NCBI RefSeq assembly: GCF_002929495.1
Contig: NZ_PJJJ01000035.1
Coordinates: 124,270 to 188,269, forward strand
DNA length: 64,000 bases
Reading direction: 5' to 3'
DNA from: Cryobacterium sp. Y82
GTDB taxonomy: Bacteria > Actinomycetota > Actinomycetes > Actinomycetales > Microbacteriaceae
Each line of letters begins with the position of its first letter. The stretch's first letter is position 1. Position numbers and translations under genes: made by a program. This document shows positions 4,203-45,452 of the stretch, piece after piece. The notes under the pieces were generated by a model. That model was not told the DNA's origin and ran no database searches. It saw nothing but the letters and a program-made list of their open reading frames with translations.

Positions 4203-4532
4203 TTACATCGCGAAGCCGAGGGCTCGCATCATGTCGCGACCATCGTCTGTGATCTTTTCGGGACCCCACGGCGGCATCCAGACCCAGTTGATGCGGAACT
4301 GATCGACGACGCCATCCAAAGCCTCGGCCGTCTGCTCCTCGAGCACATCGGTCAGCGGACAGCCGGCCGAGGTGAGGGTCATGTGGATGATGAGCGCATT
4401 GTTCTCATCGTCCCAGCCGAGGTCGTAGATAAGTCCGAGGTCGACCACATTGATGCCGAGCTCGGGGTCCATGACGTCTTTAAGGGCCTCTTCGATTTCA
4501 TCGAAGCGCGCCGGACTCAGTGTTGAAACCAT
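4203..4532 (-). CDS. sufT: SufT-like Fe-S cluster assembly factor (MIP18/DUF59)
   Basis: The 109-residue single-domain protein belongs to the MIP18/DUF59 family. It shows DPELGINVVDLGLIYDL and the conserved MTLTSAGCPLTD segment containing the family cysteine. In actinobacteria this gene is usually last in the suf operon and is thought to help Fe-S cluster maturation or transfer. It starts four bases after the sufC stop, so it is translationally linked, and a strong terminator follows it. Confidence is high for family and place, moderate for biochemical role. Confidence 0.9.
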   Translation of the reverse strand: MVSTLSPARFDEIEEALKDVMDPELGINVVDLGLIYDLGWDDENNALIIHMTLTSAGCPLTDVLEEQTAEALDGVVDQFRINWVWMPPWGPEKITDDGRDMMRALGFAM

Positions 4533-4536
4533 ACGA

Positions 4537-5301
4537 TTAGCCTACGTTCGACGGGACGAGAAAGCGATCATAGCCCTCGTCCTCGAGGCGGTCAGCAAGC
4601 TCAGGGCCGCCCTGTTCGGCGATACGGCCATTGACGAAGACATGCACAAAGTCCGGGTGGATGTATCGCAGGATGCGCGTGTAGTGCGTGATGAGGAGCA
4701 ATCCGAGGCCGGTGTTGGCTTTGGCACGGTTGACGCCCTCCGACACGATCTTGAGTGCGTCAACGTCGAGTCCCGAGTCGGTCTCGTCGAGCACGGCGAA
4801 CTTGGGCTTGAGGAGTTCGAGCTGGAGAATCTCGTTGCGCTTCTTTTCGCCGCCGGAAAAGCCTTCGTTGACGTTGCGTTCGGCGAAAGCCTTGTCCATG
4901 CGCAGGTCAGTCATGGCCTGGCGCACATCCTTAATCCAGGTCCGGATTGGAGGCGCCTCACCCTCAATGGCAGTCTTCGCAGTGCGGAGGAAGTTGGTGA
5001 CGGTCACACCAGGAATCTCGACCGGGTACTGCATGGCAAGGAACAGGCCGGCGCGAGCACGGGCATCCACTGTCATTTTGAGCACTTCGGCGCCGTCAAG
5101 CAGGATGGAGCCGCTCTCGACGTGATACTTCGGGTGACCGGCGATTGTGTAGGCGAGGGTGGACTTGCCTGAGCCGTTCGGGCCCATAATGGCGTGGATT
5201 TCGCCTTCATTGATGGTGAGGTCGACGCCGCGCAGAATCTGCTTGGTGCCCTGGTCGGTCTCGACGCTGACGTGCAGGTCTTTGATCTCAAGAACAGACA
5301 T
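4537..5301 (-). CDS. sufC: SufC, Fe-S assembly ATPase
   Basis: The 254-residue cytosolic ABC-type ATPase reads MSVLEIKDLHVSVETDQG. Walker A is GPNGSGKST, the signature is the SufC-specific FSGGEKKRNEILQ, and Walker B is FAVLDETDSGLDVDALKIV. SufC pairs with SufB and SufD to form the SufBC2D scaffold. The start was chosen at the ATG at 5301, where alignment to the family begins and AAAGGG lies upstream. A longer upstream extension in the same frame runs into the Rieske gene and is not credible. sufS and sufU, which usually follow sufC in actinobacteria, are absent here. Confidence 0.95.
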   Translation of the reverse strand: MSVLEIKDLHVSVETDQGTKQILRGVDLTINEGEIHAIMGPNGSGKSTLAYTIAGHPKYHVESGSILLDGAEVLKMTVDARARAGLFLAMQYPVEIPGVTVTNFLRTAKTAIEGEAPPIRTWIKDVRQAMTDLRMDKAFAERNVNEGFSGGEKKRNEILQLELLKPKFAVLDETDSGLDVDALKIVSEGVNRAKANTGLGLLLITHYTRILRYIHPDFVHVFVNGRIAEQGGPELADRLEDEGYDRFLVPSNVG

Positions 5302-6936: not shown

Positions 6937-8355
6937 TTAGCCGACGGATCCTTCCATGCCCATTTCAATGAGCTTGTTGAGTTCGAGGGCGTACTCCATC
7001 GGGAGCTCCCGTGCGATCGGTTCGATGAATCCGCGGACGATCATTGCCATGGCCTCGTCTTCGGGCATACCACGGCTCATCAGGTAGAACAATTGCTCCT
7101 CGCTCACGCGGGAGACGGTGGCCTCGTGGCCGAGCTGAACGTCGTCCACCCGGATATCGATGGACGGGTAGGTGTCCGAACGTGACTGGGTATCAACCAG
7201 CAGTGCGTCACAGCGCACCGTATTGGCGGAGTGGTGTGCCGAGGCATCCACTCGAACCTCACCCCGATACCCGCTGCGCCCGCCACCGCGAGCGATGGAC
7301 TTGGAGACGATCGACGACTGCGTGTAAGGCGCCATGTGGATCATCTTGGCACCGGCGTCCTGGTGCTGACCGGGGCCAGCAAAGGCCACGGACAGGGTCT
7401 CGCCCTTGGCGTGCTCCCCCATCAGGTAGATGGACGGGTACTTCATGGTGACCTTGGAACCGATGTTGCCGTCGATCCACTCCATCGTGGCGCCTTCGCC
7501 GGCCGTGGCCCGCTTGGTGACGAGGTTGTAGACGTTATTCGACCAGTTCTGGATGGTTGTATAGCGAACGCGAGCGTTCTTCTTTACAACGATCTCAACG
7601 ACGGCGGAGTGCAACGAATCCGACTTGTAAATCGGGGCCGTGCAGCCCTCGATGTAGTGCACGTAGCTGCCCTCGTCGGCGATGATCAGCGTGCGCTCGA
7701 ACTGGCCCATGTTTTCCGTGTTGATGCGGAAGTAGGCCTGAAGGGGAATCTCCACGTGCACGCCGGGAGGAACGTAGACGAACGATCCGCCTGACCAGAC
7801 AGCCGTGTTGAGCGCGGCGAACTTGTTGTCACCGGAGGGAATGATGGTGCCGAAGTACTCCTCGAAGAACTCCGGGTGCTCCTTGAGCGCTGTGTCGGTG
7901 TCCATGAAGATGACGCCCTGGGCTGCAAGTTCTTCATTGATCTGGTGGTAGACCACTTCGGACTCGTATTGGGCTGCCACACCGGACACGAGGCGCTGGC
8001 GCTCCGCTTCGGGGATGCCGAGCTTCTCGTAAGTGTTCTTGATGTCGTCAGGCAGGTCTTCCCAGGTTTGGGCCTGCTTCTCTGTAGACCGCACGAAGTA
8101 CTTGATGTTGTCGAAATCGATCTCAGAAAGATCGGCGCCCCACGTGGGCATGGGCTTGCGTTCAAACAACTGCAGGGCTTTCAGCCGTCGCTGGAGCATC
8201 CAGTCCGGCTCGGATTTCAGGTTCGAGATGTCTGTGACAACCTCAGGAGAAATGCCACGGCGCGCGGAGGCGCCGGCCTTGTCTGAATCGGCCCATCCGA
8301 ATTCGTAGGTGCCAATCCCCTCAAGGTCGGGACGGTCGAGCAGGACATCCGACAT
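6937..8355 (-). CDS. sufB: SufB, Fe-S scaffold subunit
   Basis: The 472-residue protein is first in the suf operon. Typical SufB segments include [19 protein letters not shown], then [20 protein letters not shown] with the conserved Cys, and the C-terminal [20 protein letters not shown]. SufB is where the nascent cluster is built in the SufBC2D complex. The ATG at 8355 was chosen because GAGGTAATT precedes it closely; an in-frame codon 24 bases upstream has no such site. No SufR-like repressor gene precedes it, unlike in mycobacteria. Confidence 0.95.
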
Positions 8356-8382
8356 AATTACCTCTTCTCTACCCAGCACAAC

Positions 8383-8398
8383 CCGGATATTAGTCCGG
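8383..8398 (-). promoter_or_regulatory. Possible suf promoter region with inverted repeat
   Basis: CCGGA (8383-8387) and TCCGG (8394-8398) form an inverted repeat whose spacer contains TAATAT on the minus strand, resembling a -10 box about 35 bases upstream of sufB. No convincing -35 hexamer was found. The rest of the sufB-ctaA divergent gap, 8399-8653, shows no gene. Confidence 0.3.
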
Positions 8399-8653
8399 TG
8401 ATTCCCGGGCGATCTCAGTGGAGACCACGGGGAACGGGTTGCGTGGACAGCTACGTTGCGTACCTAGAATGTTCATAGAGCCAAATCGAACCCGAGCCGC
8501 CAGTGCCCGTTCGGCCACTGTTTGGTTCCGGTCGACCTCGTGCAGTCACTATGACCGTAAGAGAGATCTCCATGGAAATCCCAATTCTACAGGTTGATCG
8601 GCAAGATACGCGTGCTTGCCGGTTGATTCACATTCGCACAGGGCACAATCAGA

Positions 8654-9643
8654 GTGCACGCGATCATGAGTGAGACAGTGGGAGCAGAACCGGTGAATTC
8701 CATCTACCAATGGTTACCCAGCGCTATGGACGCACGAATTCGGGTGGTTGCCTGGCTGTCTCTGTTGTCCGAGATAGTGATTGTCGGCACCGGCGGCGCC
8801 GTACGCCTCACTGGCTCCGGACTCGGCTGCCCGACCTGGCCGAACTGCGTCGTCGGTTCGCTCGTGCCGACGGAGGAGATGGGCCTCCACGGTGTCATTG
8901 AGTTTGCCAACCGTTTGATGACCGGGCTGATCGGAATCATTGCGATCGCGGCCGTCGTTTTGCTCTGGCGTCTGCGCAGGGAACGCAAGGACCTGTTTGT
9001 CCTCGCCGTGATTCTCGTCGGTGGCGTTCTCGCGCAGGCACTCGTCGGCGGCGTCACCGTGTGGACCGGTCTCAACCCATTTATCGTTGGCTTCCACTTC
9101 ACGGTGTCGCTCATCATGGTCTGCCTGGCGACCGTGCTCGTGCACCGGGTCTATCTTGCACCGGGACCGCGTACCCTGGTCGTTCCGGTCGGCTTCGCCG
9201 GGCTGGCCCACGCCACCAGCTTCGCCGTGGCGCTGACGGTGATAATGGGCGTGTTGACCACCGCCTCCGGACCGCATTCGGGTGATGCCGACGCGGGACG
9301 CACGGGCTTCAACGCTGAATTGCTGGAACACCTGCACGCCTGGCCGGGCTACGCGACGCTGGTTTTGACGATCGTGCTGCTCGCAGCGTGCGTTGGTGGC
9401 AAGCTCCCCGTGCGGAGATTCGTCGTCGCCCTGCTCGTGATCGAGCTCGTGCAAATCTTAGTGGGCCTGCTCCAGGCCAATCTGGGGCTGCCCCCCGTGC
9501 TGGTCGGCTTACACATGGTGCTGGCCTGCGTACTCGCCGCTGCGATGACGGCGCTCGTGCTGAACCTCAAGGCCCCGACCGGAATCACGCCGGACGCTAC
9601 CGAATTCATCGGCACGAGCGAGCTCAGCAGCCGCCGCGGATAA
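8654..9643 (+). CDS. ctaA: Heme A synthase CtaA (COX15 family)
   Basis: This polytopic membrane protein of up to 329 residues has about eight hydrophobic segments. The first loop holds the conserved cysteine pair in GSGLGCPTWPNC, followed by EFANRLMTGLIGI; both are typical of the Gram-positive CtaA branch. It converts heme O to heme A for aa3-type oxidases, working after CtaB, which is encoded 2 kb away. An alternative start at 8666 (MSETVG) would shorten the protein by four residues. The gene is divergent from sufB. Confidence 0.93.
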   Translation: MHAIMSETVGAEPVNSIYQWLPSAMDARIRVVAWLSLLSEIVIVGTGGAVRLTGSGLGCPTWPNCVVGSLVPTEEMGLHGVIEFANRLMTGLIGIIAIAAVVLLWRLRRERKDLFVLAVILVGGVLAQALVGGVTVWTGLNPFIVGFHFTVSLIMVCLATVLVHRVYLAPGPRTLVVPVGFAGLAHATSFAVALTVIMGVLTTASGPHSGDADAGRTGFNAELLEHLHAWPGYATLVLTIVLLAACVGGKLPVRRFVVALLVIELVQILVGLLQANLGLPPVLVGLHMVLACVLAAAMTALVLNLKAPTGITPDATEFIGTSELSSRRG

Positions 9644-41565: not shown

Positions 41566-44232
41566 CTACGGGACGACCATGATCTGCCCGGCGGCGCCGC
41601 GTTCAGCATCTGTCATGGCGTGCGTCACGAAGGGATAGGTGCCAGCTTCGGGGAAGCGCAGCTCCACAAACCCGCCCTGCGCCGGCGCGAGCCCGAGCGT
41701 CTGACTGCCGCCGGTGCCGGTGCTGCCGCCGTTACGCAGCAAATACTCGCCTTCCGCGTAGACCGTGTCGAACTGGCCGCCGACGATGTGGAAGGAACTC
41801 GCCAGGTTGGGTCCGGCGTCGAGTACCCAGAAGCGGATGCGCTCCCCCACTTTTGCGCGGAGCGGCTGCTCCTGGTATTGGTTCGCGTAGCCGTTAAAGA
41901 CGACGAGGTCGGGGACGGCTGCGGCGATTTTGTCGGAATCGGCAATGCCGCCCTGCGGCCCGAGGTAGAACTCAGATTGCACGAGCAGGTATTCCCGATC
42001 GACCGGGTCGAGCCCGGCGGGATCGATGACGACCGCCCCAAACATGCCGTTGGCGATGTGCAGCGACATCGGCATCGTGGAGCAGTGGTACAGCCAGACA
42101 CCCGACCGCGTGGCGGTGAAGGAATACTCGAGGGTTTCGCCCGGCTCTATCGTGCGCATGGGACCGTCGGGGGCCAGCGCGCCGGCGTGGAAGTCGAGGG
42201 AGTGACCGGTCGTGGCCTGATTGACCAGGGTGATCGTGAAGGTGTCCCCGACTTTTCCGCGCAGGGTCGGGCCGGGCGCTGTGCCGTTAAACGGCCAGAG
42301 GGTCTGGGTTACCCCTGGGGCGACCTCGACTTGGGTATCACCGACCCGGAAAGTGTAATCGTGGTGGGTTTCGGCGGACGCGGGCAGCAGGAAGGGGTCG
42401 CGCGCCTCGAATCCAGGCGAGGGCTCCGGCTGGGTTCCGAGGTCGTCGGCGGCGGATACTTCTAAACCCGTGGCATCGGAACCGGAGTGGTCGGCCGCAG
42501 CATCCGTTTCTGCGGAGCCGGTGACGATGATCTGCAGCACCATACCCATCTGGCGGTGGCCGGCGATGGAACACCAGCCTTCACTGCTGGCGGCCGTGAT
42601 TCCGGCGTCGATGATCACTGTCTCCCTGGGCGCGACACGGCCCGATGTCAAACCGCTCGCGAGGGTGAGGTCGTGCACGGCGGTGTCGCCGTTGGTGACG
42701 GTGAGTTCAAGCCGGTTGCCGGCGGGCACGGTCAGGCTCGAGGGCGCGAACCGCATGTCGAGCATGGTCACGGTCGCCTCGGTGACCTCGCCCGAGGCGC
42801 TGGCCACGGTGCCCTGAGCGGTGACCGATGCCGCACCCACCCCGGCCGTGACCGGGTCGAGGGCAACCCCCACGGTGACGGCCAGCACGAGTGCACCGAC
42901 CGCGCCGGCGGCCATCCCACTACGCGTGCGGCGCGAACGCGCCTCGCCGGCCGGCACCGCGGCGGAACCGGCGACCGGAGCGGACCCGGCGACCGGAGCG
43001 GACCCGGCGCGAGAGCGGATGCGCCCACCTGCCACGACCGCGCGCACCAACAGCACCAGAAAGCTCAGCATCACCCCGAACACCAACAGGGACAGTACGA
43101 CCTTGACCAGGCTCGGCACCGGCAGGAGGTACAGCACAATGCCGCCGTTCACGACGAGCAGGCGAAACAACGGCGCCCGGTTGAGTTCGACGGCGGCGGC
43201 CTTGCCGGCCTGCGGTCCGCCGCCGGAAACCATCGGAATCAGGTAGCTGAGGGCGCCGAGCAGCAGTTGCGCACTGAAGCCGGCCAGCAACGGAATCACC
43301 AGCCAGCCGAGGCGGGCTACGGCGTCGATCGGGGTCGCCGCGGTCGCTACCACGACGCCGAGCGCCGCAACACTGAACGCCAGCCAGGCCATCGAGGCGG
43401 CGAGGCTCCAGCCGGCGAAAGTCGTCGGCGGCGCGTGCCGGGCCTGCCGCACTGCCTCCCACACAACGGGTACGAGACCTAGAAGGTACAGCAGGGCGCC
43501 TGCACCGACACCGAGCGGCACTCCGGCCAGGCTGGCACCGGCGACCACCCCCACGCCTGCGGTGAGTAGGGGAAGGGCGGTACGGGCGGCGGCATCCGTT
43601 CCATCGCCAAGCCGGGTGCGCAGCACCGTGGGCCAGAGCAACAGGAGGGTTCCGACCGCGGTCAGGCCGATCCAGCCGAGCACGTTGAGAGCGATATGCG
43701 CCAGGTAGAGGCGAGCGTGCAGGTCGGCGCCCGTCCCCGGGTTCGCCATCCAGATGCCGAGGCACACACCACCCAAGAGGCTCACAGCGGCTGCGACGTA
43801 GAAGCGCACGAGCGAGCCGAAGCGGGTGGGTTTCGTCCGGCGGAGCTCACGGCCCAGTAGCGCCGTATGCAGCACCGCAACCGCGCCGACCAGCACGCCC
43901 CCCGCGAGCACCACAACGAACAGGTTCACGATCATGCCGATTATCACGAGAATGGCCCCGAGCGTGTGCCCGACCAGGCGAATGATCAGCGACCGGCGCC
44001 CGCCCAGTGGATGCCGCCGCACCAGAGTGTCGGCGAAGTGCTGGCTCCAGATGATGATCGCAGTACTGACTGCGCCGAGCAGTAAAAGGTGCACCATGAG
44101 CCAGTCGGCGACCGGAATGTTTTGATGGGCCAGAACAACAACGCCGAGCACGGCGAGCCAGGCAGCGACAACGGCGTTCGTCTGCAGATACCAGGTGCGT
44201 CGGGCATACACCCGGGCCGTGACGGGACTCAT
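41566..44232 (-). CDS. Fused membrane / cupredoxin / copper nitrite reductase
   Basis: The 888-residue protein has three parts. Residues 1 to about 420 form roughly ten to twelve membrane helices with conserved His. A linker and another helix lead to a cupredoxin near 480-580, with ligands in VHDL and GWCSIAGHRQMGM. Residues about 620-888 are a two-domain NirK-type reductase: HSLDFH (type 1 His, catalytic Asp, type 2 His), LYHCSTMPMSLHIANGM (type 2 His, type 1 Cys, His, Met), catalytic His in FHIVGGQ and bridging His in FVTHAM. It should reduce nitrite to nitric oxide outside the membrane, fed by the fused domains. Other multicopper activity is possible. It overlaps the upstream NnrS-like gene by ATGA. 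Confidence 0.85.
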   Translation of the reverse strand: MSPVTARVYARRTWYLQTNAVVAAWLAVLGVVVLAHQNIPVADWLMVHLLLLGAVSTAIIIWSQHFADTLVRRHPLGGRRSLIIRLVGHTLGAILVIIGMIVNLFVVVLAGGVLVGAVAVLHTALLGRELRRTKPTRFGSLVRFYVAAAVSLLGGVCLGIWMANPGTGADLHARLYLAHIALNVLGWIGLTAVGTLLLLWPTVLRTRLGDGTDAAARTALPLLTAGVGVVAGASLAGVPLGVGAGALLYLLGLVPVVWEAVRQARHAPPTTFAGWSLAASMAWLAFSVAALGVVVATAATPIDAVARLGWLVIPLLAGFSAQLLLGALSYLIPMVSGGGPQAGKAAAVELNRAPLFRLLVVNGGIVLYLLPVPSLVKVVLSLLVFGVMLSFLVLLVRAVVAGGRIRSRAGSAPVAGSAPVAGSAAVPAGEARSRRTRSGMAAGAVGALVLAVTVGVALDPVTAGVGAASVTAQGTVASASGEVTEATVTMLDMRFAPSSLTVPAGNRLELTVTNGDTAVHDLTLASGLTSGRVAPRETVIIDAGITAASSEGWCSIAGHRQMGMVLQIIVTGSAETDAAADHSGSDATGLEVSAADDLGTQPEPSPGFEARDPFLLPASAETHHDYTFRVGDTQVEVAPGVTQTLWPFNGTAPGPTLRGKVGDTFTITLVNQATTGHSLDFHAGALAPDGPMRTIEPGETLEYSFTATRSGVWLYHCSTMPMSLHIANGMFGAVVIDPAGLDPVDREYLLVQSEFYLGPQGGIADSDKIAAAVPDLVVFNGYANQYQEQPLRAKVGERIRFWVLDAGPNLASSFHIVGGQFDTVYAEGEYLLRNGGSTGTGGSQTLGLAPAQGGFVELRFPEAGTYPFVTHAMTDAERGAAGQIMVVP

Positions 44233-45452
44233 GAACGGTCTCTCTGAACAGGTCGCGCTGGCTTGCCCTGGCGCACCGGGCCAAGGACCGCGGAGGCCCC
44301 AGCGATGACGATGAACAGCAGCAGGGCGGTGATGCTGAGTGATCCGCCAAGCTGGAGCAGGTGGGGTAAGTCGCGCGCATCACCGAACAACACGCGCAGC
44401 ACGAGCGAGGCGTGCAGCAGCACTACAGGCAGGTACATGATCGGCCGGTACGGTAGCGGACGGCGCAGCACGGCCGGCAGAATGACGGGCGCGTGCGCCA
44501 TGATCATCGACAGTGTGAACCCCAGCAGCACCGCGTGAATGACAGCGTCGTAGGTCGGGCCGCTTGTCGCGGCGTCGCCGACGAGCCAGATGACACCGGC
44601 GACGACCAGCCAGGCGTACCCGCTGAGCAAGCACGCTGCCATGTACCTCGGCAGCCCGACCGATCCCAGCGTGCGGCGCGCGACATCGTGCAGGAACAGC
44701 CAGGACACCACGCAGAGCAGAGCCAGGCCAAACAATGGATAGCCGAACGCGGGCACGCACAGGGCGAGCGAGACGCATCCGGTCAACGTCAGCGACGCCC
44801 AGAGCAGGGCACGCCCGGGATGGGTGCCGCGCAGGGACAACCGCGCAAGTTCGAGGCGTTCCCCGGCGATGGTAAGCACGAGGAAGGCGCTGAACGCCGG
44901 TATCAGGTGGGCAACCGGAACGTTGGCGAGCCAGAGAATCGCCGCGACGAGCAGGTTGACACCGCCGAGGAACTGAATCGCAATGGCCGTCATCGCCTGA
45001 CGGCGCCAGATGCTGCGGTAGATCAGCAGCAGGCCGAGCGCGCCGACCGCGATTGCGGTGCGTCCGATCCAGATCGGCAGCGGCGCCAGCACGAGCAGGC
45101 TGCCAACGCCGAGCAAGGCCGGCGCAAAGAAGGCCCACCACATCTTGATCGCGACGGCCCGTTCGAGCACGATCAGGGTTCCGACAAAGCCAAAAACCAT
45201 GAGCGCGCCGTGCGATGCGGCCAGGCGGTCGGCGAGCGGCGGCACGTCGAAGCCGAGTAGGGCCGCCGCGGCATACAGCCCGAGCAGCAGCGACACCCCC
45301 GCCGGAGCCAGAAACAGAAGGCGGATGCCCGAACGATCAATCACGGCTCGGCGGGACTTTGGCCGGAGCTGGAATGGAGCGGGTGCAGTCGCTGTCTGTT
45401 CCGGTGCAGATACAGTGCCGGTGTCGAACGGGGACGACTCAGGGGGACGCAC
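44229..45452 (-). CDS. NnrS-like polytopic membrane protein
   Basis: The 407-residue protein has about twelve hydrophobic segments and a Pro/Ser-rich cytosolic N-terminus of about 40 residues. Conserved His occur in ASHGALMVFGF, HAVLLGFTLSMIMAHAPVILP and LLHASLVLRV, resembling NnrS-type heme/copper membrane proteins linked to nitric oxide stress and denitrification. Its end overlaps the start of the nitrite reductase fusion gene, so the two form one operon. The start (GTG at 45452) has a weak ribosome site and could be internal. Confidence 0.75.
   Translation of the reverse strand: MRPPESSPFDTGTVSAPEQTATAPAPFQLRPKSRRAVIDRSGIRLLFLAPAGVSLLLGLYAAAALLGFDVPPLADRLAASHGALMVFGFVGTLIVLERAVAIKMWWAFFAPALLGVGSLLVLAPLPIWIGRTAIAVGALGLLLIYRSIWRRQAMTAIAIQFLGGVNLLVAAILWLANVPVAHLIPAFSAFLVLTIAGERLELARLSLRGTHPGRALLWASLTLTGCVSLALCVPAFGYPLFGLALLCVVSWLFLHDVARRTLGSVGLPRYMAACLLSGYAWLVVAGVIWLVGDAATSGPTYDAVIHAVLLGFTLSMIMAHAPVILPAVLRRPLPYRPIMYLPVVLLHASLVLRVLFGDARDLPHLLQLGGSLSITALLLFIVIAGASAVLGPVRQGKPARPVQRDRS

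Follow-up and report, generated by a model that had tools for sequence, protein, structure and literature searches.

How does a copper nitrite reductase receive its electrons when it is joined in one chain to a large membrane domain, and what does that domain do? We examined this question in a 64,000-nucleotide stretch of Cryobacterium sp. Y82 (contig NZ_PJJJ01000035.1, positions 124,270 to 188,269; hereafter the window), in which a NirK fusion gene, A, is overlapped at its upstream end by its partner gene, B; residue numbers are those of the window proteins. The membrane domain of A and the B protein are both predicted to adopt the fold of heme-copper oxidase catalytic subunits, and we tentatively favour a reading, held at a little under even confidence, in which a single-heme membrane module passes electrons to the cupredoxin and NirK domains of A.

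Gene A, 41566..44232, minus strand: 888 amino acids (aa); open reading frame comprising a membrane domain of predicted heme-copper oxidase fold, a 13th transmembrane segment (TM13), a cupredoxin and NirK
Gene B, 44229..45452, minus strand: 407 aa, GTG start as listed (start position putative); partner with a predicted 12-helix heme-copper oxidase fold

Copper domains and membrane fold of A

The C-terminal half of A carries the copper domains.

Type 1 cupredoxin, 42517..42801, minus strand: A residues 478-572, with ligands H520, C554, H559 and M564 (Pfam Cupredoxin_1, 2.8e-9)
NirK two-cupredoxin domain, 41569..42375, minus strand: A residues 620-888, with type 1 ligands H677, C717, H725 and M730, type 2 ligands H682, H716 and H871, and catalytic D680 and H815

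Conservation was read from an alignment of 85 sequences, comprising 79 of 80 named homologous loci (the best 80 of at least 545 relatives; L057 was left out because its gene is split), the window, L008 and L039-L042. Each of the four cupredoxin ligands is kept in 85/85 (the Pfam match itself spans residues 477-542), as are H677, C717 and H725 of the NirK type 1 site, all three type 2 ligands and both catalytic residues; M730 is kept in 84/85. The nearest solved relatives of A are copper nitrite reductases, namely 2dv6 (E 5.8e-47, covering cupredoxin and NirK) and 1kbv. The match to the NCBIfam NirK model TIGR02376 (residues 624-886, 155.2 bits, E 2.5e-45) lies below its cut-off of 296.3, and we assign A to NirK by its ligands, not under that equivalog model. 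On its sequence we take A to be a copper nitrite reductase bound to the membrane. A preliminary description of this locus had reported the same gene coordinates, the fusion, an ATGA-linked partner and a complete NirK with all type 1 and type 2 ligands and the catalytic Asp and His, and in these points it is borne out. The laccase-type enzyme that it named as the refuting outcome is ruled out by the full NirK ligand set and by copper nitrite reductases being the best Protein Data Bank (PDB) matches. NirK genes lacking a fused membrane domain also occur, in L043 (493 aa) and L044 (378 aa).

The N-terminal half of A is a membrane domain followed by a further helix.

12-helix membrane domain, 43006..44232, minus strand: A residues 1-409, predicted heme-copper oxidase catalytic-subunit fold
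TM13, 42859..42915, minus strand: A residues 440-458, hydropathy 2.27 over 19 residues
H48 (helix 2), 44089..44091, minus strand: codon CAC, proposed heme ligand
H179 (helix 6), 43696..43698, minus strand: codon CAT, proposed heme ligand

From 50 sequences, AlphaFold2 modelled this domain with 12 transmembrane helices (predicted local distance difference test (pLDDT) 94.8; predicted template modelling score 0.92). In Foldseek, ranks 1-21 are all catalytic subunits of the heme-copper oxidase superfamily, 5 of them at E ≤0.001, with NorB 3o0r_B at 8.2e-5. VIA-align superposed the model on CcoN of cbb3 oxidase with Z 32.0 (388-389 residues, 3.4-3.5 Å) and on NorB of cNOR (4xyd) with Z 30.7, far above the best Z of ~14 obtained for helical models with no clear match; the absence of a family from the VIA-align list is no argument against that family. 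Sequence comparison barely detects this likeness: rows of A and B aligned with oxidase structures are 8-14% identical, A residues 1-410 match 0 Pfam families, the Pfam COX1 model touches 1 of the 50 members of our membrane-domain profile (A2) at E 1.1e-4, profile A2 finds nothing among PDB sequences up to E 10, and hhalign against a two-sequence NOR profile finds nothing. The models thus predict that the membrane domain of A folds like the catalytic subunits of heme-copper oxidases and nitric oxide (NO) reductases.

Topology and conserved histidines add detail to this prediction. With the N terminus placed inside, 24 lysines and arginines lie near inner helix ends and 1 near outer ends; the linker of A reaches hydropathy 1.6 in 84/85 sequences, and the loop ahead of TM13 has a median of 4 lysines plus arginines (minimum 1) and 1 aspartate or glutamate. 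An inside N terminus and a 13th helix together put the cupredoxin and NirK outside. The polytopic membrane domain of the preliminary description is therefore present, corrected to 12 helices plus a 13th that holds the copper domains outside.

Profile A2 matches 57/396 genomes of the phylum and profile A3, made for B, 14/396; in 40 stretches around a choice of these matches we found 29 standalone domains, 3 fusions and 12 B genes. A search for histidines in the N-terminal part, as proposed in the preliminary description, identified H48 and H179, which are invariant in 85/85 fused, 29/29 standalone and 7/7 plasmid-borne sequences. Other frequent histidines vary: H65 is kept in 82/85 fused (3 Tyr) and 17/29 standalone sequences, H122 in 76/85 (9 Gln) and 0/29, and H36 in 76/85 fused sequences. 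Heme-copper oxidases and NO reductases have six conserved histidines, including the helix 7 HH and helix 10 HxH motifs. In an alignment made by eye with pSymA NorB, A retains histidines in helices 2 and 6 but has none in helix 10; nothing in A corresponds to the helix 7 HH, and L311 and I313 occupy the HxH positions. Because the six histidines are not kept, we class neither the A domain nor B as an oxidase or NO reductase. A second, offset hhalign alignment (A 140-341 against residues 9-220 of a plasmid relative, 94.1%) is shifted by one four-helix unit, supporting an internal repeat in the A domain.

Partner B and its operon

B is predicted to be a second protein with the fold of the A domain, and its putative heme site occupies the place of the canonical low-spin heme.

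H81 (helix 2), 45210..45212, minus strand: proposed low-spin heme ligand; 68/68 aligned B sequences and 11/11 standalone sequences having the column (12 in total)
H306 (helix 10), 44535..44537, minus strand: proposed low-spin heme ligand; 68/68 and 12/12 standalone
H320 (helix 10), 44493..44495, minus strand: 14 residues deeper than H306; 68/68 and 12/12 standalone

An AlphaFold2 model of residues 36-407, built from 42 sequences, has 12 predicted helices (pLDDT 94.2) and superposes on CcoN 8smr_E with Z 27.9 (350 residues, 3.8 Å) and on cNOR NorB with Z 26.6. Foldseek returned nothing at E ≤0.001, with oxidase-superfamily chains filling ranks 1-14 (best E 2.8e-3); against PDB sequences, profile A3 gave no oxidase up to E 10 and one unrelated weak match. 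Placing the N terminus of B inside leaves 21 lysines and arginines near inner and 4 near outer helix ends. In the by-eye alignment to pSymA NorB, B retains both positions of the low-spin heme, one in helix 2 and one in helix 10, and H81 and H306, like H48 and H179 of A, lie within ~10 residues of the outer helix ends. H347 is less uniform (60/68 aligned B sequences, 12/12 standalone). B also has conserved charged pairs, E97-R98 and E198-R199, within helices 2 and 6. Direct comparison of A and B by hhalign scored 5.1% (50 against 42 sequences) and 73% with broader sets, which is suggestive only of homology at the level of sequence.

The resemblance of B to NnrS, as initially described, finds little support in sequence. 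Against Pfam NnrS (PF05940), B reaches 10.2-10.8 bits (E 0.45), far from the gathering score of 28 bits; 4/42 B members give any match (best E 0.29), and the positive control SmNnrS scores 380 bits. The hhalign score of 25.8 is at decoy level, 16 reversed comparisons giving up to 26.6, and no NnrS above the Pfam cut-off was found in 198 genomes of the phylum (0/198). We reject B as a member of the NnrS family at the Pfam level; NnrS presumably has the fold of B.

A and B overlap by 4 bases (ATGA). Of the 80 named loci, 69 have B immediately upstream of A, so the pairing is not fortuitous; the count becomes 71/83 once the window, L008 and L040 are added. Membrane domain and NirK are joined in one open reading frame in 82 of the 83 loci examined. 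In a metagenome contig (L057 671-3310), the A gene is split into two frames of 590 and 266 aa. The record L116, titled Sporosarcina, has an A and B pair, found otherwise only in actinobacteria here. An apparent 904-aa frame in genome G028 was rejected, its membrane-domain match sitting in a 445-aa stop-to-stop frame with no NirK match. The C. suzukii homologue shows 90% identity with A in the best-matching segment, and the window genome holds a second fused copy (L008 7653-10265, G000:C29; 52% identical to A) adjoining what we take, from their first residues, to be MMPL-like and SulP-like transporter genes. That genome also has narG above cut-off at two places and one full-length qNOR. A promoter scan of the A-B operon gave no match.

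Electron delivery or nitric oxide handling

The wider family bears on what the membrane domain does.

L212, 18232-19590 (pSymA), and also L227-L231: plasmid-borne homologues of the A domain in plasmid nor-nir clusters

On rhizobial-type plasmids, a ~450-aa "hypothetical protein" adjoining DUF2249 genes is a homologue of the A domain: hhalign aligned the two families at 99.1% (E 8.4e-19, 380 columns) and brought both histidines into line, while none of 16 reversed comparisons exceeded 2.4%. Of 6 plasmid stretches, 4 (one of them titled Roseateles) have NnrS and nirK annotated as its neighbours; L229 has NnrS and pseudoazurin nearby, and L232 is unannotated. A NirK match accompanies 6/29 standalone domains (L174, partial; L178, L180, L181, L184 and L185), and in L184 NirK, cupredoxin and membrane domain are separate genes. 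Across 149 genomes, which by their numbering lie within the 396 above, NirK-type matches occur in 20/23 with the domain and in 12/126 others; the thresholds were set at 95 bits and E 1e-20, and kinship was ignored.

In the mechanism that we prefer, which is plausible but somewhat short of an even prospect, electrons from menaquinol or the bc complex in the membrane would reach the heme of B and/or A, pass to the cupredoxin type 1 copper, then to the NirK type 1 copper and its type 2 site, where nitrite would be reduced to NO. We infer heme binding by the two proteins and a complex between them, together with this electron source and path. Electron delivery is favoured by the domain order, the outward topology and the intact cupredoxin. 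The cupredoxin is placed between the membrane part and NirK, and split versions of the domain and NirK exist. Also in its favour are the predicted oxidase-like fold, the invariant histidines toward the outer helix ends, the frequent pairing of B with A, the plasmid-borne homologue beside NnrS and nirK, and the narG and qNOR genes of the window genome.

Several observations weigh against electron delivery. No quinol site was identified that would serve the route from quinol to copper proposed in the preliminary description. In rhizobia, NirK draws on soluble donors, and supplying it is therefore not a necessary role of the relative encoded there. B is absent from 11 of the 80 named loci (1 at a contig edge), from beside A in L039, L041 and L042 and from beside the second A copy of the window genome, and its presence changes 8 times on a FastTree tree. 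Domain and B pairs stand with no NirK match in the stretch, adjacent in L187-L189 and ~3.5 kb apart in L190, and a standalone domain in L204 (gene pair 4407-5153 / 7021-8748) has a ScdA/hemerythrin-type gene (Pfam) ~1.9 kb away; the membrane-domain family is thus not solely a NirK donor. Finally, the accessible text of PMC4770552 describes the N-terminal extra cupredoxin of Hyphomicrobium-type NirKs as lying at a distance from the core that precludes effective transfer, and its type 1 mutant as more active than the wild type.

A more specific form of electron delivery, which we consider unlikely as a whole, would make A and B a paired oxidase-fold complex with a single heme each, acting as a quinol:nitrite oxidoreductase, with the heme of A moved to the helix 2-6 pore, B keeping the helix 2-helix 10 heme, and the rhizobial family a part of the classical nirK system that has gone unnoticed. 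The helix 2-6 pore of canonical oxidases holds no cofactor. His-Gly spacings are 5 (H48-G53) and 7 (H179-G186) in A and 7 (H81-G88) and 5 (H306-G311) in B, and both occur in one helix of pSymA NorB (HGHLAFFG, 7 and 5). Together with the pseudo-threefold symmetry, these spacings would point the His pair of A to the 2-6 pore, suggesting a heme between helices 2 and 6.

The strongest alternative, possible though doubtful, is that the A domain and B handle NO, binding, buffering or passing on at the membrane what NirK releases, a role that has been proposed for NnrS. It is favoured because the same domain occurs without NirK and near NO-related genes. Among 88 stretches (the 80 named loci, the window, L008 and L039-L044), 29 have a DUF2249 gene and 30 a helix-turn-helix (HTH) regulator, as counted with a simple gene caller and Pfam on one representative each; the L204 domain has its ScdA/hemerythrin-type neighbour, and the plasmid relative sits amid norD, hemN, DUF2249, NnrS and nirK. 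Moreover, full-length relatives of one qNOR query were found in 2 of 9 A-bearing genomes, with pieces in a third and none in 6 (other NO reductases were not searched). Yet the ligands of the fused cupredoxin, needless for NO binding, are kept in 85/85, and the window genome already has a qNOR. Electron delivery and NO handling may both hold.

That the membrane part is merely an anchor, or a helper in copper loading or assembly, is improbable. NirK requires copper loading outside the cell, and the unfused genes of L043 and L044 count in favour of this reading; but H48 and H179 are invariant across a diverse family, and one helix would serve for anchoring just as well. A fused NO reductase turning NO to N2O beside NirK is very improbable, for despite a predicted fold like that of NorB (Z 30.7 to 4xyd) the helix 7 HH and helix 10 HxH have no counterparts and the other frequent histidines (H36, H65, H122) vary, so that the absent ligands disfavour this function.

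The predicted fold and the named invariant histidines make the membrane part of long NirKs open to simple tests. Should the domain supply electrons, these organisms would reduce nitrite at the membrane and need no soluble carriers; a role in NO handling would help to account for their survival of a product that they make themselves. Through an unnamed gene of rhizobial nirK clusters, the same question extends to well-studied denitrifiers.

Comparison with known systems

The heme-copper oxidase CcoN and the NO reductase NorB share their 12-helix fold with the A and B models, whereas most of their six metal-binding histidines are absent from A and B. Like A, 2dv6, which we take to be the Hyphomicrobium denitrificans NirK, combines cupredoxin and NirK, but its aligned chain has no membrane domain. 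NnrS (PF05940) and these proteins are both membrane proteins of denitrification clusters; in 14 NnrS sequences the invariant histidines are H67, early, and H312 and H334, late.

Pei, Li, Kinch and Grishin (doi 10.1002/pro.2503) reportedly described in 2014 oxidase-like (HCOH) families, including NnrS, as 12-helix homologues of three units, most of which are said to have two conserved histidines for one heme and to be tied to denitrification and NO. A fits that reported description, with 12 helices, three units and two conserved histidines for a predicted heme; B has three invariant histidines. The A and B families may overlap with those of Pei et al., in which case our assignment would be partly known already. 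In the literature searched, which did not extend to the text of Pei et al. 2014, we found no assignment of the NirK membrane part. That study is cited in the accessible part of PMC11218638, whose Table 4 lists denitrification-induced Haloferax mediterranei operons of a multicopper oxidase, a transmembrane protein and a plastocyanin/halocyanin, possibly a split form of the A-type system. According to the accessible sections of PMC10999283, most actinobacterial NirK fall in one clade, and Nor is lacking in many carriers of clades 2-4.

The closest known system is the P. acnes-type long NirK (~900 aa), for which the accessible text of PMC4770552 (2016) gives a 400-aa membrane domain "of unknown function", a cupredoxin and NirK. 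The preliminary description was thus right to expect fusions of this kind in further actinobacteria, and A has the same three-part, already published chain. To it we add a predicted oxidase-like fold for the NirK membrane part, the invariant histidines, the topology and partner B, none of which appears in that accessible text.

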